A DNA stretch of 64,000 nucleotides. Source: Eutreptiella sp. 'Long Island Sound 2002'. Lineage: Eukaryota; Euglenozoa; Euglenophyceae; Eutreptiales; Eutreptiaceae. Location: positions 109,142,578 through 109,206,577 of the forward strand of contig OZ038382.1 of NCBI GenBank assembly GCA_964036045.1, given 5' to 3'. Position numbers and translations under genes: made by a program. Below, piece by piece: positions 3,691-62,000 of the stretch; position 1 is the first letter of the stretch; the number at the start of each line of letters is the position of its first letter. Below the pieces are notes generated by a model. The model did not search any database and was not told where the DNA came from. It worked only from the letters and a program-made list of their open reading frames with translations.

Positions 3691-4349
3691 TATTGACATT
3701 GGTAATAGTGGACCCGTGCTCCCTGCTTCGTACTGCCATCTGTTGAGTGTCTTGTCGCTCCCCTTTTCCGGTCTGTTGGCGCAGTTCTGAGCACTGTCGG
3801 GCCCTCACACCACGTCAAGGTCACCGGCCCTAGGGTCTGAGTAGGGCGTGAGGGTGGGGGAGGGGGGGGGATCCGGCGTAGGATTTCTTCAACTTGTATA
3901 AGAAGGGCTGTCATGAACCACTTCTTTTTCAACTGTTGTAGTGCAATAGGCCGCAATTTCTCAACTATGGATGCCACTGCTGTTTTGGGGATGCACCTGA
4001 TGAGGCCTTTCTTCCATACTTCTAGGAATTTTCCATCCTCCTGCGCGTGCCGCATAATCTCCAACATGCGAATAGAAAAGAATTCGTGAAATTCCTCATA
4101 AATATTCAGGGCAAATCCATCGATGCCTGAAGAGGCCCCTGGGACTTGCCTCCTGAGGGCCTCCTTAACCAGCTCCAAGGATAATGGCTTAAAGAGCGCT
4201 GGAGCCAACCTCTTCGGCGATGTCGGGATTAGGAGGGAATGCATGTACTCCGCACACTGTTCAGAGGTTCCGCCCCCTTCCCTGGTGATGCCACTCCAGT
4301 GGTCACTCAATGCCGTGGCCACCCCAGGTGGATTGGTAACAACGGAACC
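3690..4349 (-). pseudogene. LINE reverse transcriptase, N-terminal part only
   Basis: The frame opens after a TAG at 4350-4352 and runs to 3690. It holds the first conserved blocks of a LINE reverse transcriptase: a PGASSGIDGF block, a downstream FLEVWKKGLIRCIPK block and EKLRPIALQQLKK, matching motifs 0, 1 and 2 before the catalytic palm. The palm motif with YxDD is absent because homology ends near 3870 at a G-rich run. Upstream, across the TAG, the sequence continues as an in-frame linker (ATALSDHWSGI), so the TAG interrupts what was one frame. The same segment is cut at the PGAS codons at 11365 by the tandem-duplication junction. The family assignment is secure; the element is dead here. 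Confidence 0.8.
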
Positions 4350-4593
4350 CTATTTCATCGTGATCCAGGCCACCTGCTTGGCTTTCTTCACGTTGAGCAT
4401 AAGCCTGTCAACGGCGCTGTTTATACGATTCCTCATTGATGTTTGCCCCTGCGAGTAGCCGCTTGAGTTCACCTAGCTGGTGCAAGCCCATTCTGTCTTG
4501 CTCTTCCCTCTCGTAACACTGGACCAACATCGTGTAGGCTTGTGCTTGCGTACTTGGCGCCATTCCTTGGGAGCGGCGGTAATGCCATTGCTG

Positions 4594-4977: not shown

Positions 4978-6346
4978 GTCCAGTGCTGAATGTCGCCTTG
5001 AGTTCGCCCAGCTGAGCTATCGAATGTTTCATAGGCTGGCTTGGGTTAGAACATGGCAGTTTACCTCACCCTCCCACTCTTTTGCGGCCTACAAACCAGC
5101 TCACATTCACTGCTTCCCCCCTCTTCGCTCTCACTCATCATCTCTGCATCAGTGCTCACTGTTGTACTCCCTGCATCAGTGCTGTCTGTTTCACTGTCCA
5201 CCGTGTCCCAATTCTCCTCTGGTTCTTCGTCCTGCTCGGGCATCTCCTCCAGCCCCAGCTCCCTCCACACTTCACTGGCCTCTTTCTCTCTGACTACCCC
5301 TAGCAAGGACAACTCTGCACCCCGCACAGCACATTTATCTGCCTGCTCGTTGCCCTCTACTCCTGCATGCGACGGGACCCACTAGATAGACACACTGTCC
5401 CCTAACAACTGCCAGCTCTGCCAGAGCTCCATCCACAGGTCACGGTGTGCCAGCGCGCCCCTCGACCCCACCCACGCATGCCTCTCCCACTTTGCACACT
5501 TGCCCTACAGCCCTGCCCAGACAATTTCGGAGTCCGTCACTATATGTAACTTGATCCCTGGTGTTTTCCCCTGCACCGCTGCCAGCAGTCCCCGCAGTTC
5601 TGCCCGTCCAATTGTTTGCTTTTCCTGGGCAGGAACTGCTGCCCGCACATTGCGCGGGTTACCAGCCGAATACCACATCCCATACCCTGCATGCGACACC
5701 CCTGCTGTCTCTGTCCGCGATCCGTTTGTATAGCATACTTCCCATCCATCCTTGAGCTTTTGATCTATTTCCCTCCGCTTTTCAGGCAGCAGAGGCGCCC
5801 ATCTGATCCATTTCGGCAGATGCCGCTGCCGTTGCGGCAGTATTGCTCCTGTAGGTGCTCGGACCCCCCCCTGAAACATCGGTGCCCCAGAGATAAACAA
5901 CTGCAGCTCTCTGTAAATGTGCATTGATTCCTGCCTATACAGTGAGGTTTCCTCAGCGGTTGCCCACCAGAGCATACTTGCTGCCCAGCGCCCCGCAAAA
6001 TCCTGAACCGTAGGCGATTTGTCTCGAAACACCGCATCGCACCGCAGCCTCCATGACACGAATGAAGCCGCCCACAGGGACAGCCCTTGGGTGGATTGCA
6101 GCGCTTTCAGTGGGTGTGTCAGCAGGCTGTCCTGCAGGCTCAGCTGCTGCCCCGTGTTTGACCACAGTGGCCCAAATGACTTTACTACCACATCGGACGC
6201 AAAGCCCATAAATTTGCAGAACGCCACTGCATGTCTTGTAGTTTCAAGCACATCGCAAAGCACACACTTGGGCCTGTGGTACACATGCTGCGTGCGTGCG
6301 CCCACTGAGAGCTTTGCCCACAGCGCATGCCGTATATAGTTCAGCA
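4906..6346 (-). mobile_element. 5'-truncated LINE 3' end, present only in duplication copy 1
   Basis: This 1.44 kb block is missing from copy 2, where the flanks are directly joined at 12120-12135. In copy 1 it lies between two copies of GTTCAGCAGGGGG, near 4892-4904 and 6337-6349. The repeat fits a target-site duplication around a 5'-truncated retrotransposed fragment. It would equally fit deletion from copy 2 by recombination between those repeats. Insertion is favoured because the EN-RT order in copy 2 is the normal one. No clear poly(A) tail is seen. Confidence 0.65.
5061..6346 (-). pseudogene. LINE ORF2 C-terminus: CCHC knuckle plus RNase H
   Basis: From about 6346 the frame reads a helical lead, then a knuckle CVLCDVLETTRHAVAFC (C-x2-C-x7-H-x4-C) typical of LINE C-termini, then about 130 residues, then RNase H. 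The RNase H blocks are: YTNGS, where the first catalytic Asp is expected (here Asn, so probably inactive); RAELRGLLAA with the Glu; VTDSEIVWAGL with the second Asp; and WVPSHAGVEGNEQADKCA with the His and final Asp. Two TAG codons interrupt the frame, just after VWAGL near 5508 and directly before WVPSH near 5392. A Glu/Asp/Ser-rich tail follows. RNase H removes RNA from RNA:DNA hybrids in retrotransposition. Family is certain; function is lost. Confidence 0.88.
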
Positions 6347-6369
6347 GGGGGGGGGGGGGGCACTATACA

Positions 6370-26609: not shown

Positions 26610-27263
26610 TCACTGAGCCACAAACCTCATGAGGAAAATTTCCCCCGGGAGGCCCTGACGAGCCAATGAAGGCCAGCGGGGGCCTAGATTTGAGGGGTTG
26701 GACGGGTTTGACACACAGTCATGAACCCTAGCCTGAAGAGGCGGAATCAGAGAGGAGAGGAGACGGAGGAGCGTGCAGGCCGTCCTGTTAGAGTAGGGTT
26801 GCTGCAAGATGTATGACGCACGGGCGTCAGGGGACGACCGCGGTCGCTTGGGACCGTACTTGCTGCGCCCTCCCTCCCGTGGTTTGTAGTGTACCTGCGC
26901 CCGCAGCGTGGTATCGTCGGGGTTCAGGGAGACAACTCGGCGACGGAGTTTGGTGTACCATATTGGCGTGCTGTCAGCATTCAAGCGAATACTGTCTGTG
27001 CGTGGGGGCATGGGTAGTGACTGGCGTAAAAGGGTTGTGGCATGCATCATATGATAGGGTTGCCATGCCACGCGGTACCGGAGTTCGCGCACCCTTTCCC
27101 ACGGTACAGTATCAATGAAAGACTGTTGAATACGCAGTTTGGAAATGTGGTCCAGATCTTCCGGTGAGGCCTTGCCAAGCCGCCGTTGTGCCATGTGCTC
27201 CCAAGCACCCCATGTGCGGACCCACTCGTGGAGAAAAACCGGGGACCATGCACTGCAGTGCAC
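26610..27263 (-). pseudogene. LINE F ORF2 region downstream of RNase H
   Basis: 217 codons with RELRYRVAWQPYHMMHA, STPIWYTKLRRRVVSL and AQVHYKPREGGRSKY, the same block order as LINE E (22265-22839). The N-terminal part (WVRTWGAWEHMAQRRLGK) corresponds to the post-knuckle part of LINE D. The element is 5'-truncated just upstream at 27544. Confidence 0.7.
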
Positions 27264-33569: not shown

Positions 33570-33897
33570 TTTTCTAGGAGCTTGCATGGGCTCGTATGGG
33601 TCCAAGATGAATCAAAATGGCCTTAAACCACTTTCGCTTCGAACACCCCAATAGGTCAAGTAACACCTTAGGAGAAAAGCATTTTTGACCACTTTGGAAC
33701 CCATAGGTGACCCCATAACCCTACCCTAGCATGTGCACTATGCATTTTTGACCACTTTGGAACCCATAGGTGACCCCATAACCCTACCCGAGCATGTGCA
33801 CTCTGCATGCACCAGGACAACAATGGGGTGTTGAAGGGTGGTGACTGCACAAAAATAGCTTGGGGGCAATCCCTATCATCATTATTTCTCCCCACAA
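33570..33897. repeat. Family R repeat end with 60-bp internal duplication, left flank of element A
   Basis: AATGGCCTTAAACCA and TAACCCTACCC segments match 45990-46140 on the other side of element A. A 60-bp block (with TTTTTGACCACTTTGGAACC) is tandemly repeated at about 33683 and 33744. It ends with the element A TSD, CACAA, at 33893-33897. Confidence 0.7.
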
Positions 33898-33921
33898 CTT
33901 AGGCGTCACAAGTTGCCCACC
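33893..33921 (+). repeat. Element A left TSD (33893-33897) and left TIR (33898-33921)
   Basis: CACAA followed by CTTAGGCGTCACAAGTTGCC and four more bases. It pairs perfectly over 24 bp with 45816-45839. 16 of 24 positions agree with the element B terminus. Confidence 0.95.
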
Positions 33922-34316
33922 CCCCATGTGGCTCTGGCCCACGGAAGTCCATGTTGTAGTGAGGGGAAAAAGATGTGAAAAGGGGTGTTATTTTTTGGGT
34001 ATCCAAACCCCCCTAGTGGCAACATGCAAAAACAAGGTGTGTATTTCAAATATATGCCATTATTTGCATTTCTGGAAACACAAAGATTTTCAAAATAAAG
34101 ATATTCAATCAGCAAAATATAGTGTTGTTTTACATTTAGACCACTGCATTCCAGTGCGGGGGGGAGGGGGGTGGTATTTTTTCTCTCCCCTCTGTTCCAG
34201 GGTGATCACAGAACCCCCCTATACATCACAGATAAGGGAACCCCAAACATACCTTTCATCGAAGGACACAGAAAACTATCCCAAAGCATGTACTTCTATT
34301 TCCTAGTTTAACCAAC

Positions 34317-34640
34317 CTGGCCGAAATTTCGGCCGGCTCTTCGAAAAATGTCAAAACACATGGTCCTATTTGGCAGACAGGCCTAAGCTGGCCGAAATTT
34401 CGGCCAGGTCCATCGAAACTCCGAATATGATCACTGAAATGGGTACCTATGACAGTAGACATGAGCAAGGAACACAGGAGCAGTGACATTTGAACAGGGT
34501 GTGCAACATAATATACTCAATTACAAGCAAATACTTTCCACCTGACGAATCAAATCACACTTTTGCAGTGCCTATGGGGAAACACAATAATAAGAGGCTG
34601 AAGAGGCTCAGGACTGCATGCTGGCCGAAATTTTGGCCAG
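34317..34640. repeat. Element A palindromes, left subterminal cluster (3 copies)
   Basis: TGGCCGAAATTTCGGCC(A/G) at about 34317-34336, 34388-34407 and, with one change, 34621-34640. All lie between the TIR and the stop codon of the leftward gene, that is in the 3' subterminal region. Perfect inverted symmetry suggests either a dimeric protein-binding site or an RNA hairpin. Confidence 0.9.
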
Positions 34641-34679
34641 ACTTCATATTGACACGCAATATAAGCAGTAGGACTGGCA

Positions 34680-37012
34680 TTAGCGCTTGCGCAGACCGGA
34701 TGCACGGGACTTCTTAGCACTTGTGTTAGCAGGAGTCTTGGCAGGGGCTGCAGCACCAGGCTTGGCAGTGGCAGAGTTCTGTGACTGTGTGTTTCCACCC
34801 TGGGATGGTGAAAAATGATTCACAAAAGCATTTATACCTCTGCCAGTGGGGGCCACAGTGCCTGAGGAGGAAGCTCCGGTGGCCGGAGCGCACTGCGTGC
34901 CACTAAGTGAGGGGGAAGGGGCAGTTTTGGGTTTCTTCTTTGGAGTGTGTGTTTCTGGCTGCGACTCTGCCTCCCCATCTTGCTCCTCAGGATCCTCATC
35001 TACATACCTAACCCCAAAATAATCCACAGGAAAACATGCCCCCAAGTTATGGTACACATCCTCCCATCACTTGGGGGGGCACGTGTCGACGTTGGTGATA
35101 GCCGCTCTAATGGACTGAAGAAACTCATCAGGCACAACAGTCTCCTCACCCAAAAGGGCACACACAACATTACAGTCCTTGGAAAACCTGGTAGACATCA
35201 TGCTTGCAAAATACACAGACAGAGTCCCTAGCAGAAACCAATTGCCTGCCCGTTGTGGGACCGGAACCAGGCTCAAAAGAAACGAGAATATCTCAACAGG
35301 CATCACAGACGACATGGGCTCTTCAGTAAAAGCCACGTAACGGGGCATCCTGTTCTCAAAGGCGGTGGCAGAACAAACGGAAACCAGATGGGAAGTGGAA
35401 GTATACAACGGGGTCTTGGTTGACAAATTGTAAATTGCGACGTCAAACTGATACATGGCCTCAGCCACAGTGGTCTTCAAAGTAGCAACAGTGGCTTTCA
35501 CATCAGCAGACTCACCCGCAATGAACACAGGCACACCAGAAGGAAGCAGCTGCGCAACCGGGTTATGCAAACCAGCTGTATAGAGGCGGGGCACCTCAAT
35601 GACACAAGCAACAAAGGGCAGTGAACTAATGATACTGGGAACGGGGACTCCACAACGCATTGCCATCAGTTCCACACGGCCTGACTCTGCAATGAGTTTG
35701 CCTGTGCTTGTCTCAACGAGGGACTCCCTAGCACACTGGATACTAACCAGACCAATATCAGATTTTTCACAAACAGGCTTAGCAACAGGCTTCTGCAACA
35801 ATCCCCGCAAACCCTCATATTTGGGTTCCTTCCAAATAGTGGCCTTGATTACTGCTGACCACGGTGGCCAGGGGTTTTCTTCATTCCAGGTCCAGCTGCC
35901 ATAGGCTACCTTCGGGTGTGATGCGATAGCGCACTCCCTTTTGGCCATCTCGATAGTACCAAGTGTAGCTGCACACAGGTGGTATCACAAGGTGGGCTCC
36001 TATTGTGCATTAATTGAACGACACACAAGCTGGCCGAAGTTTCGGCCAGCCCGGTCCATTTATTCGAATACAAACCCCAGTTTGACCAAAAAAAACCTCT
36101 GGTGTTGTTCACAAGCCCATTGGCAACCGCCTCGGGATGAAGAATGTGCCAGGACCACATCTGGGCCTTTTTAACATCTTTTATAATTTTTTTGACACCA
36201 GGTAGGGTACTTTTTGTCCCATCCATGTAACCTACGATGTCGCGAAGTCGGTCAGGCGTGATGCCTTCCACTTCTTTGAACGTACCCCGTGCGGGATGTA
36301 ATCCACGTTTCTCCATGGCTCCCATGGCGTCTACTGCAGCAAGACCCACAAATTTCACCAAACGCCCAACGCCACCCCACCGTTTGGCAAGAGCAGTCTG
36401 CACAGGAGAACATGTGGAACACAGAAGCTGGCCGAAATTTCGGCCAGGTAATTCAACAGAACCGAATTAATAAACGAAACACACCACATTGCCTTCCTCG
36501 GCAGTAACACCACAATCTTCAAGCATAACAGTAATGTGATAGTAAAGGGTGTACTCATTGGCATCCTCATCCTCAAGCCTATCCAGGAGTAGGGACATTC
36601 GCTCCGATGTGGTGGATGCTGAGCCAGCGGTGGCCTGGATTTGATGTAAGCCGGCAAGCCGGCGCCTAGTCCGCAGGGGGCAGTCCTGTTTGACTTCATA
36701 ACCACCAAATACCAGGGTCCAATCCGGAGTCTCCAAATTTTTCATCTCCAATTCCGTCTTGTGTTTTTGGGCAGCAGTGTAAACATGCTGACCCCCCAAC
36801 AGAACCCAGTGAGTGGCTGCGCAACAGGAATATTCGAAACAGCAGGGTCGAAAATTCAGGCACAAAAACGGTACTATCGAGAAGAATACCACAACACACA
36901 TATGAGTGACTTTATAAAAAAGGAGATCCTGAATGTAATCCACAGGCGGGGCTGCCTTCATATCGTCGTAGCGGCGTTGCACACCATCATCCGATATCCT
37001 ACGGACCTGCCC
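34680..37012 (-). pseudogene. Element A second coding stretch, part downstream of the B insertion
   Basis: Reads into A's C-terminal domains from the exon split at 37013. Introns that keep frame lie at 36398-36484 (donor GTGTGT, acceptor TGTGCAG) and 35969-36096 (acceptor TGTGCAG), each containing one A palindrome. The product matches the B C-terminal half: ALAKRWGGVGRLV, MWSWHILHPEA, WTWNEENPWPPWSAVIKA, MPRYVAF and FLQSIRAA in order. Its acidic then Lys/Pro/Ala-rich C-terminus ends SRASGLRKR with TAA. A TGA at 35067-35069 sits where B has a sense codon (PPK-stop-WED against PPIQWD). Before 36485 lies an A-specific region with no match in B. The protein is presumably a mobility protein; family unknown. 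Confidence 0.75.
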
Positions 37013-37041
37013 AAATTCTTAGTCGAACCAAGTGTCCACCC
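37013..37041 (+). repeat. Element B left TSD (37013-37017) and left TIR (37018-37041)
   Basis: AAATT then CTTAGTCGAACCAAGTGTCC and four more bases. It pairs with 42400-42423 with a single mismatch at position 6. Confidence 0.95.
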
Positions 37042-37548
37042 GGAAAACCTGCCTCCGGCTATCTAAATCGTAACAGGCGAACCGAAAAAAGTCGAGCTAC
37101 AGCACCGAAATTTGAAGTAACAAAAAATTTTACCTCGATTTCTGGTCCGTGAGACACAAACTGAGGAAAAACGTAGCCGAAAAACAATAGTCAAAAGTGG
37201 GGTATTTACTATGGGAAGGGAAGAAATGTGGTGGGAGAACGTCGAAATCGGGGGTAGGGGACATAGCTGATTTGTCGGGGGTAGGGTAGAGGGGAAAATT
37301 GAGATGGACAATTGAAAACATTTTAAAAACCTTATGGAAACCTGACAGTTATTGACAGCGCATAAGCGTCAAACGCAAAACAGGCACGCACAGCATAGGG
37401 CCAAAACGAATAAGGACAATTTCTGATGATCTCTTTCAAATGATGCCATCTGTGTACTCGGTGATTGTGCCGAGCAGCTCAAGGAGTGCTCACTTCAAGT
37501 AACGATGAGCCTTTCAGCAGTGAAAGACATATTACTCCGGACAAGATG

Positions 37549-37721
37549 CTATCGAAATTTCGATAGCATAATATAGAAAGGAATCTGTCGTCGATGCCTA
37601 TCGAAATCTCGATAGGATTAAAACATAAAAATCTGACGGGCGGGGGCCAATCGAAATTTCGATTGACGAAAACACATCATCGGTGGTCATCGAAACGGGG
37701 TTTCTATCGAAATTTCGATAG
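37549..37721. repeat. Element B palindromes, left subterminal cluster (4 copies)
   Basis: CTATCGAAATTTCGATAG at 37549-37566 and 37704-37721, CTATCGAAATCTCGATAG at 37598-37615 and AATCGAAATTTCGATT at 37649-37664. All are downstream of the gene's stop codon and inside the TIR. Confidence 0.9.
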
Positions 37722-37786
37722 AGAAAGCAACAACATATAACCAGGAGAAATAAAAAACGGAGACTAAAAATATGACATATGCTCGA

Positions 37787-40700
37787 TTACTTCTTGGCCG
37801 TAGCCCGACTCGGATGAGAATCCTTGTGGGGCGAGCCCTTCTTCTTGGGCTGATCCGTAGCAGCCTTCGACAACTTGGCCTGAAATTCAGCAAAAGCAAA
37901 CTTCTTCTTCTCTTTTTCCTTCTGTGTTCCTTCTTTCTTACCTTTCGCCGATTCTTTTGCCGCCTGCTTTGCTGCTTCCTTCGCCGCCTTTTCGGATTCC
38001 TTCTGCAGAGGAAGGGTGAAAGATTGATTAAAGAAAATAAAACATCGAGGCTGATATGTAGATATAAACAGACATACTTTCTCCTGAGCAGCCGCTTTTT
38101 TCTCTTCTTTCGTCAAGGCCTGGCTGACTTTTTTCTCAGCGTCCTTCGCTGCCTTCGCTTGACCCTTGACTGTGTCCTTGTCTTCGTCATCGTCCGAAGA
38201 ATCTGTGGCAGAACAAATAGTGAAGGAGAGGAACAAGACAAATCTGATGAGGTGTCTTTCAATGCATACCTTCGTCAGTGTCAGGAGCCTCAAGGGGATA
38301 ACCCCGCTTCATTCGGTCGAGAACAAGATCCCATTGGATCGGTGGTAGGGCCTGTACCCTTTGAAGGCCAGCTGAAACTGTAAGAAAAAGCAGAAAAAAT
38401 GAGTTGAGGAGTTGATTGAACTAGCGGAGGAAGGGAGGCCTTGAAACATACCATCATCAGTAAACTTCGTCAATTGTTCTTTGCTTGGTGCCGTTGACAA
38501 ACCAAGAAGAACGGCAACGTTAACATGACAACGGAGACGAAGCCGGATGTTGCTCACCAGAACGGGAGATGTAGTCTGAACCGCAACCCAGATCTCGTTG
38601 ACGCTTTCTTCGATAACATCCAATTTGAGTTGATGCATGATGCAACCCAGAATCTCTGGAGGGAGTCGATTGTCATCTTCGGCCGGATTGTTGTACCGCT
38701 CGTCTTCGAAGGTAATGTACCTCGGGGGCTAAAAGAAAAACAATCGAAATTTCGATAGGAGGAAGTACGCAAAGCGACGCTATCGAAATTTCGATAGAAC
38801 ACACCTTCCATTCTTTGATATGGCGCAATGTCAAGACAACGAGCTGGGAAGTTGCCATGGTGTAATTGCTGGTCAAAATCCCCTTATTGTACAACGCGAT
38901 GTCCCTGGTATAGAACTCATCATCCGTTGACGCAGAGATGGCGTTCAGAACAACGCGGACGTCAGGACGATCTCCAACCAAAAGCAGAACGGGCATCAAC
39001 TCCTCATCAAGGACGTAAGACAACATCATTGGACACAGGGGGCGTCCCGCAGCGGTACCCTTCGGAATCTGATAGACGAGAATCCTCGGTTTCAGTCCAG
39101 AGATTGCAACAGGGGTTGCACCGACAGCTGGCCCGATGCGGACTTCACAGACTGCCTCTCCGGGTCTCGTTTCACCAAGCGTTACTGTCAGACATTCTGC
39201 CGACGTACTTTTGATCACAGGCTTCACCTTCGGTTGACTGAGGGATTCGCGGAGGGTCTTGAAATCCTCATCAGACCAGATGGGGGCCTTGCTGATGGTC
39301 GTCCAAGGCGGCAGAGGATGCTGTTCGGTCCACTTCCAGCGCGGGATATGCACCTTGAAATCCTGGGGAGACAGTGATGACGTTATTCTCTTCCACTCCG
39401 CAAAGTTTTTCCGAGACTCGTGCACGAAGGGGTTGTCCGGATGTTCCAAATGCCAAGTACAAGTTCGCTGCTCCCGAAGTCTCCGAACGAAGGTCTTAAG
39501 CAATGGTGGCGTCAGACCTCCTTCCAGCAGCCTTTCACAAACCTGTAAAAGATATGTCCGAAGATGACTGTGTTGTTTTAAATAAATAACAATGACGCAA
39601 AGAAAGTAACTACCTGCGCAATCTCCGGCGGATACAATCCCTCAAGCGGCTTGTACTTGTTGAACACCGGATTCAACTCGTCCTTCCCCTGAAGCTCGAC
39701 GACTTTCGGAATGATCGCTTTGTCCTCAACTTGGGAAACGAAACTTGCAAGAACCGTCCATCGCTTTGCAACTTCTTCGTCTGTGCCGTGCACTGCAGTG
39801 TATCCGGTCTTGTGCATCATTGTCAGCGTTGCGGCCTTTGGGGTAGGTAATCCTGCATAGATAATAAGGAAAGAATTTGTGACGTAATGTTAATCGAAGT
39901 GGACCCGCTATCGAAATTTCGATAAAGACCTTTGAGGTGACACTCGGTGAAGAGGCGATGGAGTCGTTGCTCACACGTATGCTCAGATCCGCCATGGGAT
40001 GCCCGGTTGTGATGCCCAGCGAGGGTTTGTCGAATCCAAAACGGTGTGTCCGCACTCAAAATCAACCCGTCGTACATCCTTGTCCAATGAGGCGGTGTCT
40101 TGCCTTCTTCTTCGTACTTCTTTCGTACATCCTGGGTCCAGACCAGTAAAAGCAGACAATGTTCAAGAACAGTGCGTGCGGTCTTCCCAGAATCCAGAGC
40201 AGCCCCGGCCCAAGTACATTCTCGAACCCCATACCCAATGGCCCAGAGTGCAGGTGTGAAAACAAACAACAGACTGTACAGGGATTGAATCTTTTGATAT
40301 GCCACAGTGTTTTCAAGATTCATTGGTCGTCGGAGGGTCGACAATCTATCTCTAGCTTCGGTGATAAGACCTTTCAACACGTTGCTCGCTAACAAAAGAC
40401 CGGCAAAAACCTTTTCCATGTATATGAGCTTCCGATGACAAGGAATCTTAGTCCGCAGCGTTATAAATGGTTTGAGCAGCCAAGAAATAACGGGAAAGAA
40501 ACGCCTGAAAGTAATGTGTACACAGTATTTGTACGGATGCCAAATGCCATAAAGCAGTGGAATGCGTTCCAAATGTGACCGGTAGTCAAGACTTCTGAGC
40601 TTCGCACCGTACATGAAACGCAAAACCGATGCATGTATTTTCATGTCCACCAGCAAAGGCAAATCCCGGCCTGTATGAATCTGTATGCGACGCATCATCT

Positions 40701-41507
40701 CAATTAACTGCAGCAGCTCAGTGTTTGTGCTTGTTCGACACTCGTCCAGCAGCATAGGTTTCCAAATTTGTGGATGCACTATACCTCTGGCGATGTCGAG
40801 TGGCGCAGGGATGAAATGTGCCTGTAACGTCCCATCCGTAACAGAAATAGTTTTCAGTAGACCCCTGATGGAGGTCCGAATGCATCTCATGACACCTGGC
40901 AGTCTGAAAACCATGCGGCGCAATGTGAGATGTCCAGGAAATCGGGGCAGCAAGATTGTAAAGAACACGGCTACGGCAGAACAGTCAAGATGTCCGGGCG
41001 GTCCATCTGGGTTCTGCAGGAATCGTTTTCTGAAAAAATTGTCCATCCATATGCCAACAGAAGCAATGCTCATTGCATTCCAGAGGTCCATCGCTGCTGC
41101 AACACCAGATTCCTGCAGAGTCGGTATTCGAGGTGGAACTATGCCAAACCTTGCGAGTAACTTCCGTTCACGCTGCGAAACAGTAATGTCCAGAGCCGGG
41201 CAAAAAGCGAGGGGTGCCGCACGCAGGTGCAGCACACGCCAGATGATGAAGAGCTCCTGCTGGAGTACGCTGAGCCATCTGGGCAAAGGTGTACAGTTTC
41301 TGTTAGCAACCACGTGCTCAAATGTCTAGCGGCGGCGTTTGGTTATCCTTATTCCAAGGACAAATTCAACAAATCGCCTTGACGTACCGCCTTCGCAAGC
41401 ATCTTCAATAATTTGGCGTCCATTCTCCCAAGAGTGCGAAGCGAGGAATCCTCGCACGTAGGCAATGAGATGGCCATCCATCTTTGGCGTACATGGAACT
41501 CGTACAT
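37787..41507 (-). CDS. Element B protein, 8 exons, 1072 residues: candidate transposase
   Basis: Exons, minus strand: 41507-41388, 41325-39930, 39852-39614, 39542-38805, 38728-38452, 38377-38270, 38202-38078 and 38002-37787. Introns are 62-77 bp, all GT-AG with donors such as GTACGT and GTATGT and acceptors such as TTTTACAG. The sum is 3219 nt, 1073 codons including TAA, with no internal stop. Motifs shared with A and often C: GIWMDN at about 131-136, LDCSAVAVFF, PLDIAR about 215, LPLLVDMKIH about 262-271, LLYGIWH about 297-303, VRECTWAGAALDSG; then WKWTEQHPLPPWTTISKA and PRYITF. The C-terminus is acidic (SSDDDEDKD), then Lys/Ala-rich. Introns 2 and 4 hold B palindromes. Being the only gene in the element, it is inferred to be the transposase; a catalytic role for the Asp of W-x-D-N is a guess. 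Start chosen at the first in-frame Met; 41417 (MDAKLLKM) is an alternative. Confidence 0.85.
38742..38797. repeat. Two element B palindromes inside intron 4
   Basis: CTATCGAAATTTCGATTG-type copies (read on the minus strand) near the 3' end of the intron (38742-38757) and TCTATCGAAATTTCGATAG next to the donor (38780-38798). One at each end of a 76-bp intron could let the two ends pair as RNA. Confidence 0.88.
39908..39925. repeat. Element B palindrome inside intron 2
   Basis: CTATCGAAATTTCGATAA just inside the donor of the 77-bp intron 39853-39929. Confidence 0.88.
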
Positions 41508-41573
41508 GAAATAGAAGACAACAAATAGTCTAGCATTTAAAATCTTTGGACTCTGTCAGACTGTCACTATCGA

Positions 41574-42023
41574 AAATTCGATTGCAGTTTAAACAGCCTA
41601 TGCTTTACAGGGTAGTTATTCCTTTAGCGGCTATCTAAATTTCGATTGGACGTTCCTATCGAAATTTCGATAGGAATTGAATTCCTTTTCTGTCGAATGC
41701 TCCTATCAAAATTTTGATTCGAGATGCTCCTATCGAAATTTCGATTGGTTTTAGAAATAAATCGATTGTGTAGACATCTCCATCGGATAAAACATTCGAA
41801 TGTGTTTGATTTTTTTTACCTCTTATTTCTTTTACCTTTATTTTTCTACAAAGTTGTAATTTAAAATTCATATACTACTGTAGTACAACTATGTTCCGGT
41901 AAACCTTCGTGAAGGATTTTGATGGTTTGCTCTCTGAATGTCGTTAAAGAGTTCCAATCGCAATTTCGATTGATCCATGCAAGGCAAATTGTCACGTAGC
42001 TTCGACAATCGAAATTTCGATAG
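41574..42023. repeat. Element B palindromes, right subterminal cluster (about 6 copies)
   Basis: Clear copies at about 41656-41673, 41729-41747 and 42006-42023; diverged copies at about 41574, 41631, 41701 and 41956. All lie between the first codon of the gene and the right TIR, the likely promoter region. Confidence 0.85.
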
Positions 42024-42399
42024 CATCATTGCTTTTTCATTCTAATTTTCACATACACAGACTATCAGGATTCGGGTGGACAAACAGTTTGATGTAGATA
42101 ATCGTGCAACCGAAGTTTCGATACATGAGACTTCCTGCCTACATTGTGAACTTCCCTGCGTCTCTTTCCTATTCGAACAACAAACAACATGCAGCAATTC
42201 AAATGAAACACACTGAAGTGCATATATGCATGCGCGTGGTAACACGGTGGTACACAACTGCTCATGTACTTGCACAACCACTGTCTTTTTAGGACATTTC
42301 TTCTTTCCCGGGATTGGCTTCATGTTCTTTAACCGTGTTTTTCGCACCGTGTGACACGTCCCTTTTTTGGTCCACTTTCCGGTGACAGGGGCCCATTTT

Positions 42400-42428
42400 G
42401 GGTGGACACTTGGTTCGTCTAAGAAATT
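42400..42428 (-). repeat. Element B right TIR (42400-42423) and right TSD (42424-42428)
   Basis: Ends in CTAAG then AAATT. The first five bases CTTAG and the blocks CG, CAAGT and CC are shared with the element A termini. Confidence 0.95.
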
Positions 42429-42678
42429 TTCGGTCATGGTCAATAATAATCTGGTCCCTGCGAACCTTTATTTTCGTCGTTGACGTAACCCAGTTGAATA
42501 ACTTGATGGGGGATGTTGAATTTTTTTCTGGTGCGGCCTTAGGCTTCTTTTGAAGTCCCTCTGTGCTCGCCTGGTCCTCTTGAGACTGGGATTGCACTTG
42601 AGATTGCCCATTGTCTGCTACAGGCTCACCATCTGGCAAAACAGCCACGCCTTGTGATACCTCTCCAGGCTCAGTCAT
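42424..42678 (-). pseudogene. Element A second coding stretch, 5' part cut by element B
   Basis: Starts at the Met at 42678 (MTEPGEVSQG) with an acidic, Gln-rich N-terminus, then a basic KIKVRRDQIIIDHDRKF segment. It meets element B at TSD AATTT (minus strand, 42428-42424). On the far side of B the frame resumes at 37012 with GQVRRISDDG in the same phase if B and one TSD copy are removed. The frame running from here into B to 42289 is accidental. Confidence 0.7.
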
Positions 42679-42797
42679 AAAATAAGATGCTACACGGCAA
42701 CATTTCATGAAGGGGAGAGTTCCCAAATAGCAAATAACAAGCACAGATCAACCAAAAAAGGACCAAAACGGACTGCTTGACTGGAAAATCGGATAAC

Positions 42798-42955
42798 CTG
42801 GCGGAAATTTCGGCCAGCACTGCTCTGCATGTTAAACCACTGTGCAGAAATACCATACTAAGGGGCTGGCCGAAATTTCGGCCAGAACCGTATGTCATTT
42901 GTGTTGCGGGGGTAGCCATATGACGAAACAACAAGTCTGGCCGAAATTTCGGCCA
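42798..42955. repeat. Element A palindromes, internal cluster (3 copies)
   Basis: Copies at about 42798-42817 (one change), 42866-42885 and 42937-42955. They sit between the two A coding stretches, either an intergenic spacer or a long intron. Single intronic copies lie at 36030-36049 and 36428-36447. Confidence 0.88.
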
Positions 42956-43049
42956 AAAAAACATGAAACAGCAAATAGACACACCAAAATCACTGGCAAT
43001 GCGTGGCAGAACCCATACCACAGTGACAAACACAGCTGCAAACAAAAAA

Positions 43050-45263
43050 TCAGTCCCAGTCCTGGGTATCCACACCGATGTGTTCTGCCTCATCTAGGGC
43101 TTCAAAGGAGGCAACATTGTCTGCATCACAATCAATATCCCGGTCACTATCACAAGAGTGAATGGCAATGGAATCATCAGGGGCGGGGGGGGGTACTGGG
43201 AGGGGGGGGGGGGCTGGGGGGGGTACTGGGGGGGCTCTAGCTCGGGGCTTTGGGGGTGGCTTTGGGGGCAAGGTAATCCCACCAGGAGCAGCAGCGGGAG
43301 CAGCAGGCGGTGCACGGTTGGCAGCGCGGATAGAAGCATGTGCAGTACGCAATACCGCTTGCTGGGCAGCAGTGCGAGCGGGTGCATTTGTCTGTAAAAA
43401 ATCCTCAACACCCTCAGGAACCCTGGTACGCGCAACCAGATTTTGCATTGCATGCAACAGAACCACTTTTAACCGGTCTGTGGTGATTCCGGTCCTAGAC
43501 ATTGCACCGGGGAAAGTCACATCCTCAACTGCATCCAGTCTTCTCACCTCAACTTTATAGTCCGGAACGGGGACAGATATGGGTAGGCTCTGTGTATGGG
43601 CTGTCAAGATGAATTGTTTCAGATTGGCAGAGAACATTGCCACGGATCTCTCAGTCGGCACACCACGCAAAACTTTCTCTCCCGGTTGGACAGGGGGAAG
43701 TGTCAGAAACAAATCAGACGACTGCTGGACACTGGTACAGGCAGTGTTGCGGCGACAGTGGGCTGAGAACCGACTCAGAAGAGCCTCACCCAGCTCCTCA
43801 GAGTGGATACACCCTAGGGAGGCGGAATGCCACTGACTCCAAAACAAAAGAGCAACAGCAGTGGTTTTCACATACTCCGTGGCTAGTTGCTCCTCGGGCT
43901 TTAGGATGTTCACCATGAGCAGTAGGGACATCTCAAGTGCCTGCTTAGCAACAATCCCGGAACCTGCCCCCCGGCCCTCCCAGTTGCACTCACGAACCAA
44001 AGTCCCAATGCTGAAAGCAGCTGGACAGTATGTGTACAGCAAAGCCTTAAGGGCTAATAACATACGCAAACCCTTGCGTTGAATGGGTGTCAAGTCCCGC
44101 TGGCTACTGAGCAGGGCAGTTACGCGCTCATCTAGTCTGCCTCTATTGGACGATGTGGCTAGCATGAGTCCAAGCAACGTCTTCTCCGTATGGATGACCT
44201 TGACCTTGCGAGGGAAGATAGACCCAACCTGAAGGCTATTCCCCTGCTCCAAAAACTTAATGAACGGCAGGAACGCCCGGTACATCAATTCAACGCAGTA
44301 CTTTTAGCTATGCCATACTCCGTACACCAAAGGAAAACCCAACAGTAGTTGTGGTACATTCCACGGAACATAAGCGGCACCATAACACAGCTTAAGTAGG
44401 GCAAAGTGTATTTTCATGTCCACAAGCAGTGGAACACAGTGTCTGGTGCGGTGTTCCACACATGACAAATCAACCACGAGTTGCAAAAGCTCTTTGTGTG
44501 TGCCGGAGCGGAGCTCAGACAAGAAAAAGTGTCTCCAGTTGAGGGAACGAACATTTTTTCTGGCAATATCTAAAGGAGCACGAACCCAAACTCTCTGAAT
44601 ACCTTAGTTGGCAACATCAATACGATCAAACAATGCTCTATGTGAGCGATAGATGTCATCTGCAACCTTTGGTACCCTGGCCTCAATTTCGGCAAGCTCC
44701 GGCAGACCCGGGTATGCACGTAGGGCAGTAGTGTGCAAAACAGCAACAGCTGTACAGTTTAGGGTTAAGTCGGGTGAATGGGGATCAGCTCCCGGCCTGT
44801 AACGCCTCAGGTTATCAAACCATATACAAACTTGCCTACGGTGCATGGTGTTCCACAAGTTGTGTGCTGCTAGTCCAGCACGATGGTGAATGAACTCCTA
44901 TTTGGTGTTACACTGACCAAGGACTCCTACCTTACGGCGTTGGCGGCAGGACATAATACCCCAGTTGTAACCAGACCCACAGTTAGAGTACGTGAGGGCC
45001 ATACGACGCAGCAGACAGTATAGGGCATGGAACTGTGACAAAAATGTCATCTACCATCGTGGGGGCTTCTTCTCAGTGGCAGCAGCCTTCAACTGTGTCA
45101 TGGAGTGCCGGCTCCTGCGATTCTTCCGCAACATGAGGCGGAATTGCAAAAGCTTTTGCAGAGTCCCACCACGTAATGCATTTCGCAACAGCCCTTTGGC
45201 TATAGTAGCAAAAGCACCAGTAACTGCAGCATGTACAACATTGACAGAAATAGCACAAGACAT
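43050..45263 (-). pseudogene. Element A protein 1: homologue of the N-terminal half of the B protein, four in-frame stops
   Basis: One frame of 738 codons from MSCAISVNVV to a TGA at 43050. It holds, in order, VCIWFDNLRR, LNCTAVAVLHT, APLDIARKN, VPLLVDMKIHFALL, LVYGVWHS, VKVIHTEKTLLGLMLA and LVRECNWEGRGAGSG, each with a direct counterpart in B. It is interrupted by TAG near 45051, TAG near 44897, TAA near 44604 and TAA near 44304, but by no frameshift. After the homologous part it adds a long region ending in a Pro-rich block and an acidic tail (ALDEAEHIGVDTQDWD). Poly-C runs (plus-strand G runs) at about 43187-43230 encode the Pro block. Three A palindromes follow at 42798-42955, between this and the next coding stretch. 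Confidence 0.8.
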
Positions 45264-45333
45264 TAATGCTGCGACAAGAAAACAGTTATGTAGGAGTGTA
45301 AGGTGTAATACTCATGAACAATGACAATTGCAA

Positions 45334-45634
45334 GCTGGCCCAAATTTCGGCCAGGTGTGTTCGAAGGGGAAATAATTGCTGAAATGTTCAAAAATAGGAA
45401 AAGCTGGCCGAAATTTCGGCCAGACCGACCAAAAACCGGAATAGAAGTGCTTGAATAGTGAACAGACCAAAAAGCTGGCCGAAATTTCGGCCAGCCCTAA
45501 GAAAATGAAAATAACTATGCCTATTCACTAGGAAACCAAAAAGCTGGCCGAAATTTCGGCCAGAAGGGCCAAAAACTGCATATACACATAGTTGTTTGCA
45601 ATGTTACCCAAAAGCTGGCCTCATTTTCGGCCAG
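45334..45634. repeat. Element A palindromes, right subterminal cluster (5 copies)
   Basis: Copies at about 45334-45353, 45404-45423, 45475-45494, 45544-45563 and 45615-45634, spaced about 70 bp, between the right TIR and the first codon of protein 1. Three are perfect CTGGCCGAAATTTCGGCCAG. Even spacing upstream of the gene suggests promoter or transpososome binding sites. Confidence 0.9.
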
Positions 45635-45815
45635 CTTCAGAAAAACGTCAAATACAACGCAGTAGAAGAAGTGGATACACAAGGCTAACACTTCAACACG
45701 TATTTCAACGGGTGTCACACAACTCTACCAACAACTTTGGTCACATATGTCAAATAGCATACGCAAAGTAGAAATGTAGAATATTGTCACATCGCGCGTA
45801 TATGGGGTCCTAGAG

Positions 45816-45844
45816 GGTGGGCAACTTGTGACGCCTAAGCACAA
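45816..45844 (-). repeat. Element A right TIR (45816-45839) and right TSD (45840-45844)
   Basis: Reverse complement of the left TIR, then CACAA. The inverted repeat stops cleanly after 24 bp; subterminal sequence differs between ends apart from the shared palindromes. Confidence 0.95.
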
Positions 45845-46760
45845 AGGTGCCCAACGCAATCCATGGTGTTCAAACAAAACACATTCCCCCCGTACCCCCC
45901 CCATACACATCCTCAGGCCTAAAATTGTCCCTTTCAAAGGTTTTGGGGAACTTGTATCGGCTAGTATGGGGCAACTAAGGCTCAAAATGGCCTTAAACCA
46001 GTTGTTTCGGCACCCCACATGGTCTAGGAACAATTTTGGAAAAAATTGTTGTTGACCACTTTTGGGCCTACAAGTGACCCCCGTAACCCTACCCTAGCAC
46101 GTGCGCCATGCACGTTGGTGGTGCCAATGGGGCATTGAATGGTGTTGACAGCATGGACTTACGTTTCAAGTGATCCACTTCATACTAATACCACCACAAG
46201 TGTGCCCCACGGAGCCCTAGGCTATCAAACACACCAAAGGAAGGTGTGACCTGAAAAAGGTATGCAAAAAAGGTGCGTTTCAATGCTGATTTCGCGTTAT
46301 TTTGGACCCAAAAAGAGCTTGTTCAGGCCACTACTTGGGTTTGTTCATCATCTAGGTAGGTTTCAATGCAAACGGACCCCAACATGGACATGCTAGGCAC
46401 CCAAACTGCCCCATAAAATGGCAGTTTTTGGCCACTTTTGACAGATTTGAAACCTAGGTATGCCACTTGCAAAACCTATTCTCGGCTGCCAGCGTTGGGT
46501 TTCCTCCTCAAAATCTATGTGATTGTCCCTCACACCTATAGGTATCATTCACCAAAATTTGGCCAAATCTGAAGCACCACGACCAAGTTGTGATTGTTGC
46601 CCAGTTTGCACGTGCTTGCTGCTGCTGCTACTGCTGCTGTTGCTGCTGCTTGCTTGCTTGCTAACGTGGTAGGTAAACCTAGACGTTAAAAAGGGTTATA
46701 AAACCAACAATGGTTATACCACCTCGGTGACCCTATCCTGAACCGTAGCCTAGGTGATGG
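45845..46760. repeat. Family R repeat, right flank of element A
   Basis: AATGGCCTTAAACCAG near 45991, CCGTAACCCTACCCTAGCA near 46080 and CTCGGCTGCCAGCGTTGGG near 46482 match other R copies. A CTG-rich microsatellite interrupts it at about 46618-46665. No gene seen. Confidence 0.65.
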
Positions 46761-46963: not shown

Positions 46964-47440
46964 CTACTGCTCCTCCTCAGATTTTCGTTTCTTGTCCATT
47001 TTATTGACATACATGATTGCCAAATGGCGCAACGTCTCATTGCTCATATTGCCACGTTCATGTGTCAGGATGTGTCCCAACAAACTGAAAGCCCTCTCCA
47101 CATGACATGCGGAGCGAGGCCTACGGACAAAAAAACAGATGGCCCCTTTTGTAGATAACCAAACAGCACAGAGATTGCAATTTAGTTTCCCATTTTGTGA
47201 CTCACCTTGGCTGTCAGTCAGGCTGAGGTGGTCTCCAATACCTTCCCCAATGGCCCACTGCAAACAATCTGCTGTACTCCTGGTTGTCTCCTTGTTCCTT
47301 GAGGATTTCTGAGACTCCTGGGACTCCTGTGATGCTTCGGTAGTTTGAGTATCCTCAGGACTTGAAATGTCAAAACAACACCAAAACAGCGAAGATCTGT
47401 GCAACAATAGAGAGGAACTGACCGGCCAAAAATTGCCCTT
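46964..47440 (-). pseudogene. hAT transposase C-terminal fragment (dimerisation domain)
   Basis: Ends with SACHVERAFSLLGHILTHER, then NMSNETLRHLAIMYVNK and a basic tail (KMDKKRKSEEEQ, TAG/TAA beyond). This is the ER-FS--G conserved core of the hAT-family dimerisation region. Upstream in the same frame is a Ser/Gln/Glu-rich stretch, and a possible intron (GTGAGT near 47206 to a pyrimidine-rich TAG near 47128) whose phases do not match. The catalytic part is absent from the window, so this is a remnant or the last exon of a domesticated gene. Confidence 0.7.
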
Positions 47441-47515
47441 TCCGGGAATGGAACCCAGGACCCTCCAAACTGGGACCTGGTACATAGACCACTGAGCTAC
47501 CACTCAGTTCTGAAA
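47435..47515 (-). other. tRNA-like module (box A and box B)
   Basis: Minus strand GGTAGCTCAGTGG, then CTGGGTTCCATTCCCGG, which forms a good T-arm (5-bp stem, 7-base loop). The anticodon arm does not pair well, so a tRNA pseudogene or SINE head rather than a working tRNA. Confidence 0.45.
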
Positions 47516-55544: not shown

Positions 55545-58135
55545 GAGGGCAGTGGGCTGTGGTACTCCTGCAACGCACTGCCACACCGCCTCGAGGCTGT
55601 GGGCAGTGGTACTCCTGCAACGCACAGCCTCACTACCTTGGGGCGGGAACTGCAACTCCTACCATGCACAGCCCCACTGCTTGGGGGCAGTGGGCAGTGG
55701 AAGTCTTGCAATGCACGGCCCCACTGCTTGGAGGCAGTGGGCAGTGGAACTCCTGCAGTGCACTGCCTCATTGCCTCGGGGCAGTGGGCAGTGCAACTCG
55801 TGCAATGCACGGCCCCACTGCCTAGGGGCACTGGGCAGTGGAACTCCTCCAACGCACTACCTCACTGCCTGAGGGAGGTGGGCAGTGGAAATCTTGTACA
55901 GCACTACCTCACTGCCTGGGGGCAGTGGGCAGTGGGACTCTTGCAATACACTGCCTCACTAGCTTGGGGCAGTGGGCGGTGGGACTCCTGCAATACACTG
56001 CCTCACTGCCTAGGGGCAGTGGGCTGTGAAACTCCTGCAACGCAGTGCCTCACTTCTTGGGGCAGTGGGCACTGGAACTCCTGTAATACACTGCCTCACT
56101 ACCTGGGGGCATTGGGCACTGGAACTCCTGCAAGGCACTCCCTGCCTGCCTGGAGGCTGTGGGCAGTGAAACTCCTGCAACGCAGTGCCTCACTGCCTTG
56201 GGTTAGTGGGCAGCGCAACTCGTGCAATGCATGGCGCCTCTGCCCGGGGGCAGTGGGCTGTGGAACTCTTGCAGTGCACTGCCTCACCGCCCGGGGGCCA
56301 TGGGCAGTGGAAGTCCTGCAATACACTGCCTCAGTGCCTGGGGGCAGTGGGCAGTGGAACTCCTGCAACACACCGCCTCACTGCATGTGGGCAGTGGGCG
56401 GTACAACTCCTGCAACTGAGTGCCTCACTACACGGGGGCAGTGGGCAATGCAACTCCTCCAACATACTGCGTCCTTGCCTGAGGGCAGTGGGCAGTGCAT
56501 CTCCTGCACGACAATGCCTCACTACTTGGGGGCAGTGGGCAGTGGAACACCTGCAACACACAGCCTCACTGCTTGGGGGCAGTGGACAGTGGAACTCCTG
56601 CAACACACTGCCTCACTGCCTTGGGGCAGTGGGTAGTGGGACTCCTGCAATACACTGCCGCAGTGCCTGGGAGCAGCGGGCAGTGCTACTCCTGCAAATC
56701 ACCGCCTCACCGCCCGGGTAGCGGGCAGTGCAACTCCTACAACATACTGCGTCACTACATGGGGGCAGTGGGAGGTAGATCTTCTGCAATACGCTGCCTC
56801 GCTGCCTGTGGGCAGTGGGCATCAGAACTCGTGCAACACAGCGCCTCACTGCCTGTGGGCAGTGGGCGGTGGGACTCCTGCAATGCATTGCCTCGCCGCG
56901 TTGGGGCGGTGAGCAGTACAACTCCTGCAACTGAGTGCCTCACTGCCCGGGGGCAGTGGGCAGTGCAACTCGTGCAACATACTCCGTCACTGCCTAGGGG
57001 AAGTGGGCAGTGCATCTCCTGCAAGACAATGCAGCACTGCCCGGGAGCAGTGGGCAGTGGGACTCCTGCAATACACTGCCTCCCTGCTTGGGGGCAGTGG
57101 GCAGTGCTACTCCTGCAACACACTGCCTCACTGCCCGGGGGTAGTGGGCAGTGCAACTCCTGCAACACACTGCCTCACTGCCCGGGGGTAGTGGGCATCG
57201 CGACTCTTGCAACATACTGCGTCACCGCCTGAAGGCAGTGAGCAGTGCAACTCCTGCAGGACAATGTCACTTTGCTTGGGAGAGTGGGCAGTGCAATTCC
57301 TGCAACACAATGCCTCACTGCATGGGGGCAGTGGGCAGTGCCACTCGTGCAATGCATTGCCTCACTACCTGGGGGCAGTGGGCAGTGGAACTGCCGCAAT
57401 GCACCGCCTCACTGCTTGGGGGTAGTGGGCAGTGCAACTCTTGCAACCCAACGCCTCACTGCCAGGGGGCACCGGGCAGTGTAACTCCTGCAACGCACTC
57501 CCTCATCTCCTCGAGGCAGCGGGCAGTGCAACTGCTGCAATACACTGCCTCACTGCCTGGGGGCAGTGGGCAATGGGACTCCTGCAAAACACTGCCTCAC
57601 TGCTTGAGGGCAATCGGCAATGCGACTCCTGCAATGCACCACCTCAGTACCCGGGGGCAGTGGGCATTAGAAATCCTGCAACGCAGTGCCTCACTGCCTG
57701 AGGGCAGAGGGCAATGCAACTCCTACAACACAGTGCCTCACTACTTGGGGGCAATGGGCACTGGGACTGCTGGAATACACTGCCTCACTGCCCGGGGGCA
57801 GTGGGTAGTGGGCCTCGTGCAATGCACTGCCTCCGTGCCTGGGGGCACTGGGCAGTGCAACTTCTGCAACATACCCCCTCAGCTCCTCGAGGCAGTGGGC
57901 AGTGCAACTCCTGCAATACACCGCCTCAATGCCTAAGGGAAGTGGGCAGTGCAACTCCCGCAACGCACTGCCTCACTGCCTGGGGGCAGTGGGCGATGGA
58001 ACTCCTGCAATGCACGGCCCCACTGCTAGGGAGCCAGAGAGCAGTGGCACCCTTGAACTGTACGGCCTCACTACCTGGGGGCAGTGGGCATTGGAGCACC
58101 TGCAACACACTGCCTCACTGCCTGGGGGCAGTGGG
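55545..58135. repeat. 47-bp satellite-like array 1, about 55 units
   Basis: GGCAGTGGGCAG-type words recur every 47 bp (for example 55686, 55733, 55780). Each unit contains CACTGCCTGGGGGCAGTG, a 7-bp stem with a 4-base loop, followed by GGCAGTGGAACTCCTGCAA. As 47 is not divisible by 3, all frames cycle, giving long spurious frames on both strands. No gene. Confidence 0.95.
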
Positions 58136-60600: not shown

Positions 60601-60821
60601 TCGGAAGAGGCCACGTAGGTGCGTGCGTCCCCCACAAGACTGCATTTTTGGCCCACAGAGGTCCTGGACGGTTGGCGGGCGGGTCGGACCCGGCCTGACA
60701 CAGGGAAAACGCATACAGCACCACCACGCATCACGGATGACTTGGAGGTTGGCAGTGCACGTGGACAATCCGTCCCACAGCTACCATCCTGAGGGTTTTT
60801 AGACTGGTGCCAGGTCACCAG

Positions 60822-61745
60822 GGGCAGTGGACAGTGGAACTCCTGCAATGCACGGCCTCACTACCGGGGGGCAGTGGGCAGTGGAACTCCTACAAGGCAC
60901 GGCCCGAGTGCCAGGGGGTAGTGGGCAGTGCAACTCTTGCAATACACTGCCACACTGTCTGGGGGCATTGGGCAGTGCAAGTCGTGCAATACGCTGCCTC
61001 ACCGCCTCGGGGCCGTGGGCAGTGCAACTTATGCACTGCATTGCCACACAATCGGGGGGGAGTGGGCTGTGCGACTCCTGCAATATCCTTTCTCACTGCC
61101 TGGGGGCAGTGGGCAGTGGAACTTGTGCAATATAGTGCCTCACTGCCCGGGGGTAGTGGGCAGTGCAACTCCTGCAACGCACTACCTCACTGCCTGGGGG
61201 TAGTGGGCAACGCAACTCCTGCAATGCGCTGCCTGAGTGCCTGGGGGCCGTGGGCTTCGGAAGCCAAGCAACGCATTGCCTCACTGCCTAGGGGTAGTGG
61301 CCAGTGGAACTCTTACAACACATGGCTTCAATGCCTAGGGGCACGGGGTAGTGGAACTCCTGCAATACACTGCCGCACTGCCTTCGGGCGGTGGGCAGTG
61401 CAACTCCTACAACATACTGTGTCACTACCTGGGGGCAGTTGGGCTGCCTAGGGGGCAGTGGGCAGTGCAACTCCTACTATACACTGCCTCATTGCCTCGG
61501 GGCAGTGCACAGTGCAACTCCTGCAATGCATTATCTCACTGCCTGGGGGCAGTGGGGAGCGGAAGTTTTGCAACGCAACGCCTCACTGCCTACGCGCATT
61601 GGTCAGTGCAATTGCTACAATGCATTGCCTTACTGCCCAGGGAAAGTGGGCAGTGCTATTCCTGCAATACACGGCCTCACTGCCTGTGGGCAGTGGGCAG
61701 TGGAACTCCTGCAAAACACTGCCTCACTGCCTCGGGGCAGTAGGC
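60822..61745. repeat. 47-bp satellite-like array 2, about 20 units
   Basis: Same unit and orientation as array 1, including the CACTGCC...GGCAGTG hairpin, and ending in the same tail. Confidence 0.95.
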
Positions 61746-62000
61746 AGTGGAAGGAGGAGGAGGAGGCGGAGGAGCGCCTACCGAAGTCCCATGGACGATG
61801 GGCCTTGGTGTCGTCCCCCGGGGATCCCGCGCAGACCAGCCACAGGAGTCCTCCGTCTTACCTCCGCAAGAGCAAGACGGATCTCACCACAAACCTCGGA
61901 CGCTCTTCCCAGCAGGCACGGTCCAATCTGCCCCCAGATCCCTGTCACCAATCGTTTGAAAGTCCTGGATCCACCCCAGTCAGCGTCCCAAAATCGTCCA
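61744..62000. repeat. Array tail segment, copy 2
   Basis: Matches 58136-58420 with small indels. Similarity fades after GGCATCACCCCCG. Confidence 0.9.

Follow-up and report, generated by a model that had tools for sequence, protein, structure and literature searches.

We analysed a 64,000-nucleotide stretch (the window) of contig OZ038382.1 from the euglenophyte Eutreptiella sp. 'Long Island Sound 2002' and found two nested DNA transposons, an outer element A and an inner element B. Each most probably represents its own family within an undescribed lineage, at superfamily level, of eukaryotic cut-and-paste elements; this explanation includes two proposals: that the first open reading frame (ORF1) encodes the transposase, and that a protein of the element binds short palindromes particular to each family. 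The boundaries, terminal inverted repeats (TIRs) and target site duplications (TSDs) are as follows, in window coordinates and with strand where it applies:

33898–45839, element A, split by B (6531 bp once B and one TSD copy are subtracted)
33893–33897, A TSD CACAA, left copy
33898–33922 (+), A TIR, left
45815–45839 (−), A TIR, right
45840–45844, A TSD CACAA, right copy
37018–42423, element B, nested in A within the frame that starts A's second gene (5406 bp)
37013–37017, B TSD AAATT, left copy (a single copy at the same site in two other A copies, L051 and L052)
37018–37041 (+), B TIR, left
42400–42423 (−), B TIR, right (one mismatch against the left)
42424–42428, B TSD AAATT, right copy

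The TIRs of A, CTTAGGCGTCACAAGTTGCCCACCC, are 25 bp long without a mismatch and are flanked on both sides by CACAA. A first-pass annotation of this DNA had correctly called them perfect and named the TSD, while giving their length as 24 bp. For B, re-measurement returned the annotated values, namely 24-bp TIRs with one mismatch flanked on both sides by AAATT. Likewise in agreement with that annotation, the ends of both elements start with CTTAG, are identical at 16 of 24 positions and generate 5-bp TSDs.

We scanned the 2.28-Gb genome assembly for these ends. A 25-mer of the A end, allowing up to one mismatch, had 726 forward and 743 reverse matches, and its reversed-pattern control had none in either direction; a looser pattern covering B-type ends (up to two mismatches) had 1324 and 1241 matches, against 532 and 466 for the control. 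As these counts exceed the controls, the ends are not chance occurrences, and copy numbers, control patterns and TSDs together exclude chance or an assembly artefact as the source of the elements. A 5-bp TSD flanked all 11 other A copies examined (two whole, nine by their ends). Exact 5-bp TSDs were also present at 19 of the 20 B-pattern end pairs fetched, and those 19 copies measure 7.17–7.23 kb; two of the pairs (L047 and L048) carry an identical TSD and resemble a single insertion that was later duplicated. The twentieth pair (L050; G000:C2:84763300-84771100) is CTTAG-ended and 6.36 kb long, with no TSD. Given the 200 N inside it and flanks that repeat each other in inverted, not direct, orientation, its two ends may come from different insertions. 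Among the first 30 loci there were four pairs from shorter B copies, three with a 5-bp and one with a 6-bp TSD. Full-length copies are about 6.53 kb for A and about 7.2 kb for B, with a range of 6.3–7.2 kb for the group overall. Elements of the group run from CTTAG at one end to CTAAG at the other, with TIRs of about 24–25 bp. Many independent insertions with varied TSDs, the pattern that the first-pass annotation had proposed to look for, were therefore seen in both families.

The order of the two insertions in the window can be read from an empty site. When B and one TSD copy are removed, the window A aligns without gaps across the site to both other A copies examined, each of which carries a single AAATT. 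Together with the nesting, this exact empty site establishes that A was inserted first and B later, as had been annotated. Identity between the window A and the two other A copies is 94.3% and 93.7%, and the window B reaches 99.2% identity with the full copies nearest to it. About 1.8 kb present in the 7.2-kb copies is missing from the window B, and through this deletion its ORF1 now runs into an exon of ORF2, the second gene. The B insertion point is the frame that opens A's ORF2. We class the window B as a deletion derivative sitting in A's ORF2; A is additionally broken in ORF1.

The first-pass annotation had assigned A and B to one family. Since their ORF1 proteins are 28–30% identical, their full lengths differ and their palindromes differ, we instead treat them as two separate families of one larger, superfamily-level group. 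A third family, C, was found by searching the genome with P0011, a distant ORF1 homologue, which matched at 37–39% identity (76 places scored from 7338 first-look candidates); 56 of the 76 places had no stop codon in the match. A whole C copy (L071) has CTTAG ends (CTTAGGCGGCTCTATACGCACGTAG) and a TSD that agrees at four of five bases. Among ten further C copies sampled, the left end was found in nine and both ends in eight, all eight with an exact 5-bp TSD. The ORF1 protein family, CTTAG ends and a 5-bp TSD therefore co-occur in three families. Relatives are also present in other public contigs, and at least one of them, P0011, is at most 39% identical to anything scored in this genome.

A, B and C have a common gene order, with ORF1 first and then a second gene spread over several frames. 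The ORF1 frames in the window are:

43050–44288 (−), C-terminal part of the A ORF1 frame, putative transposase (frame broken in this copy)
44604–44858 (−), A ORF1 fragment with the W-x-D-N motif, holding the first candidate catalytic Asp
39823–41313 (−), B ORF1, putative transposase, joined by the internal deletion to the ORF2 exon

In full-length B copies, ORF1 is a single exon of 697 residues and is fully open in 14 of 19. Neither of the two whole A copies read has an intact ORF1, but the database contains an unbroken A-type protein of 722 residues (P0004), in a cluster of 267 sequences. Database relatives of ORF1 are 20–40% identical. Searches of the roughly 700-residue protein against Pfam, NCBIfam and PDB sequences matched no transposase family, returning weak unrelated matches or none. 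Two AlphaFold2 models of ORF1 aligned best with the P element transposase and then with Hermes, one of them also with Transib and RAG1, and structural matches 1–25 of the predicted model were all DDE transposases or RAG1. These models argue strongly that ORF1 is a DDE transposase with a predicted RNase H fold in which, like in the proteins of P element, hAT and Transib/RAG, a helical insertion splits the core. Candidate D-D-E residues are conserved in the ORF1 alignment, and the putative catalytic set comprises one Asp in W-x-D-N, another in PLLVDxxIH and a Glu within EExxEA. A prokaryotic or viral origin was considered and rejected: when the viral_contigs and genome_contigs collections were scanned using alignment A4, none of the pattern-matching stretches (35 and 44, respectively) was confirmed as a relative. 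The B ORF1 frame also found no relative in a phage collection.

The second gene is represented in the window by the following frames:

42289–42744 (−), A ORF2, first frame, interrupted by the B insertion
35067–35948 (−), A ORF2, large exon frame
34680–35057 (−), A ORF2, Lys/Arg-rich C-terminal tail (same tail in L051)
38673–39503 (−), B ORF2, large exon frame
37787–38293 (−), B ORF2, Lys-rich C-terminal frame

In one B copy (L043), ORF2 has two predicted GT-AG introns and a third predicted splice donor, all placed by eye. In B, both ends of the ORF2 protein are rich in Lys and Arg; in A and C, the C terminus is. A and B are 31% identical over one exon frame; similarity to C is weak, and as the C row aligns poorly, the alignment of ORF2 pieces (A5) was used for the A/B likeness only. 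Searching the database with the B exon frame recovered seven proteins at 73–97% identity, that is, close relatives only. It could be argued that catalysis resides in ORF2, a large protein that matches no class. However, the RNase H-like model and the conserved D-D-E residues both belong to ORF1, whose relatives extend to 20–40% identity while those of ORF2 are close, and we consider this alternative very improbable.

Both elements contain short palindromes, of the type CTGGCCGAAATTTCGGCCAG in A and CTATCGAAATTTCGATAG in B, at these positions:

34314–34640, A palindromes, one subterminal region
45323–45634, A palindromes, other subterminal region, at 69–71-bp spacing
42786–42956, A palindromes between ORF1 and ORF2
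36018–36447, A palindromes inside ORF2, between coding frames
37546–37727, B palindromes, one subterminal region
41569–42029, B palindromes, other subterminal region
38740–38803, B palindrome pair past the third predicted ORF2 splice donor

The whole window holds 21 perfect palindromes of at least 14 bp. Nineteen of these lie in A or B, 17 of them with the core CGAAATTTCG, while block-shuffled A/B sequence yielded a mean of 0.6 (50 shuffles). The C palindrome, TTTGGGCACTGCAGTGCCCAAA, is unrelated to those of A and B; in one C copy it was found at eight sites when up to five mismatches were allowed, and two of the sites are perfect palindromes. Elsewhere in the window, TGCACTGCAGTGCA at 27249–27262 shares the core of this C-family palindrome. 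In all three families, palindromes occupy both subterminal regions and the space between the genes; in A and B, others fall between ORF2 frames or within introns predicted for ORF2. B has about 20 sites per element, and none of 20 sites (up to four mismatches) overlaps an approximate set of coding positions. Confinement to non-coding DNA is shown for B only, because one imperfect A site (two mismatches) falls within ORF1 and some C sites (two to four mismatches) lie, by position, inside open frames.

The B palindromes also vary less than their surroundings. Across 15 copies, excluding the reference and its three nearest relatives, with sites picked in L038 and a hand-drawn, approximate coding set, variation was 1.06% in palindromes, 2.53% in other non-coding sequence and 1.39% in coding sequence, and none of 2000 random sets was as low as the palindromes. 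Perfect-core sites in all 19 copies pointed in the same direction (0.8% versus 2.25%).

The likeliest explanation is that the palindromes are bound by a protein encoded by the element, with RNA pairing as the second possibility. In its strongest form, the latter holds that the palindromes work mainly as RNA, folding introns to bring splice sites together, and that the subterminal copies are incidental. In the B copy with predicted introns (3960–4059 and 4312–4390, with the third donor at 5434, in element coordinates), a palindrome follows each of the three predicted 5′ splice sites, beginning 5–10 bases past it. Moreover, palindrome pairs can base-pair across B intron 1 and across the third intron, whose acceptor was chosen by eye (z of −2.8 and −3.8, respectively). 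However, intron 2 holds a single palindrome and is unremarkable (z of −0.7), A's ORF2 has just single sites at two places, and the majority of B sites are subterminal or intergenic, outside introns. We regard a mainly RNA-based role as improbable and favour protein binding.

We propose, with strong confidence, that ORF1 cleaves both CTTAG ends and joins them to the target strands at positions 5 bp apart. Either the Lys/Arg-rich, multi-exon ORF2 or the N-terminal region of ORF1 would bind the family's palindrome in the subterminal arrays, and this binding would assemble the transpososome and set family specificity. At the sites between genes and in introns, the same binding protein may control the element's own genes. 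We have moderate confidence in such a role for ORF2 or the ORF1 N-terminal region in specificity and gene control. More speculatively, each family may evolve its own palindrome of ~16–20 bp, read as DNA by an element protein that builds the transpososome and confers private specificity, and read a second time in introns, by that protein again or through RNA pairing that times ORF2 splicing, such that palindrome and protein co-evolve. We offer this extension tentatively and think it less probable than its negation. If true, lock-and-key pairs of palindrome and protein would let sibling families nest in one genome without cross-mobilizing. The family-specific, conserved palindromes constitute a natural experiment on the joint change of transposon DNA sites and proteins.

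Several other features of the window lie outside A and B. To the left of A, 33679–33808 is a 63-bp tandem duplication (97% matches), and related sequence lies to its right at about 45947–46109; as the related sequence is found on both sides, A may have inserted in a diverged tandem repeat. Just outside A, a frame at 46964–47503 (−) resembles by eye the C terminus of a hAT transposase (an ERAFS-like stretch, a motif known from that class) and has no Pfam match. A frame at 5508–6362 (−) contains an RNase H domain (PF00075, E = 5.5e-07) and is probably a piece of a retroelement. The 768-residue open frame at 292–2595 (−) has weak Pfam matches, under the curated cut-offs. Two arrays of a 47-bp minisatellite, at 55547–58135 (about 55 copies) and 60821–61749 (about 13 copies in 60821–61444), also yield long open frames.

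We compared the group with named superfamilies, of which there are about two dozen among eukaryotic DNA transposons, 24 by the count of Repbase (PMC12730594). The group fits the general description of DDE cut-and-paste elements in its TIRs, a fixed TSD length at varied targets, an exact empty site and, in the predicted models, an RNase H-like D, D, D/E arrangement. That no named superfamily accommodates it, as the first-pass annotation had stated, was upheld within the scope of the Pfam, NCBIfam, PDB and open-literature searches, with Repbase and Dfam outside that scope. Literature searches on CTTAG with TSD, on new DNA-transposon superfamilies and on 5-bp TSDs, which do not cover Repbase or Dfam, gave no description among the matches listed; the search on CTTAG with TSD listed one paper, whose title is that of a survey of fungal repeats. 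Excerpts from two papers, one a survey of Ectocarpus from 2025 and the other on the IS481EU superfamily (together PMC10045372 and PMC12477816), likewise contain no mention of this group. The group might already be catalogued under another name, for example in Repbase, given that it is abundant in its host, that it has relatives in other public contigs and that repeat-library entries may be missing from open papers. We consider this unlikely, as the matches listed in those literature searches include no such group and the database rows give neither a source name nor a Pfam domain for any of the 25 proteins P0001–P0025. One family alone has 1469 recognizable ends in a single genome, and the group is not named in the sequence libraries searched.

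Under the other alternative, A, B and C form a highly diverged branch within hAT or P and no separate lineage. The closest structural matches of the ORF1 models, P element and Hermes, favour such a branch, and both predicted models, when aligned to 6pe2 and 6p5a, share with the P element superfamily a helical insertion located after strand 5 and before the last catalytic helix. However, in the P superfamily, to which Drosophila P and THAP9 belong, P-like elements have 8-bp TSDs (PMC7776569), against 5 bp in A, B and C. There is no sequence match to the P element, and the A/B group differs in its CTTAG ends, second gene and palindrome arrays. Pfam found no THAP domain, which is N-terminal in the P superfamily, in five A2 members (one weak unrelated match, E = 0.093) or in four further ORF1 proteins. 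For hAT elements, the TSD is usually 8 bp, and hAT5 families with 5-bp TSDs have been reported (PMC12730594), placing the 5-bp TSD of the A/B/C group within the 5- to 8-bp hAT range, which again speaks for a hAT branch. The ORF1 proteins gave no hAT Pfam match, including the C-terminal dimerization domain, and are unrelated to hAT in sequence by the searches run. Overall, we hold a hAT or P origin to be a minority reading and favour a separate lineage.

Transib ends begin with CAC, so that Transib and RAG differ from the CTTAG-ended group. The C(2)C and H(3–4)H motifs that Transib, of the CMCT clan, carries between the second D and the last E (PMC12730594) are absent from the conserved columns of ORF1 alignment A3. 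Zisupton and KDZ elements are set apart from A, B and C by the 8-bp TSD given for Zisupton (PMC12730594). Because ORF1 is tied to P, hAT and Transib/RAG by its predicted fold only, it can help to order the deep history of that class. En/Spm (CACTA) elements differ in their 3-bp TSD, their CACTA ends and a TNPA motif that is not known to be a perfect palindrome or to be spread through introns. They likewise have two genes and many short subterminal motifs, and serve as our working analogue for the palindrome arrays. Taken together, we read the lineage, at about superfamily level, its palindromes and its second protein as new, and its DDE chemistry as that of known transposases.
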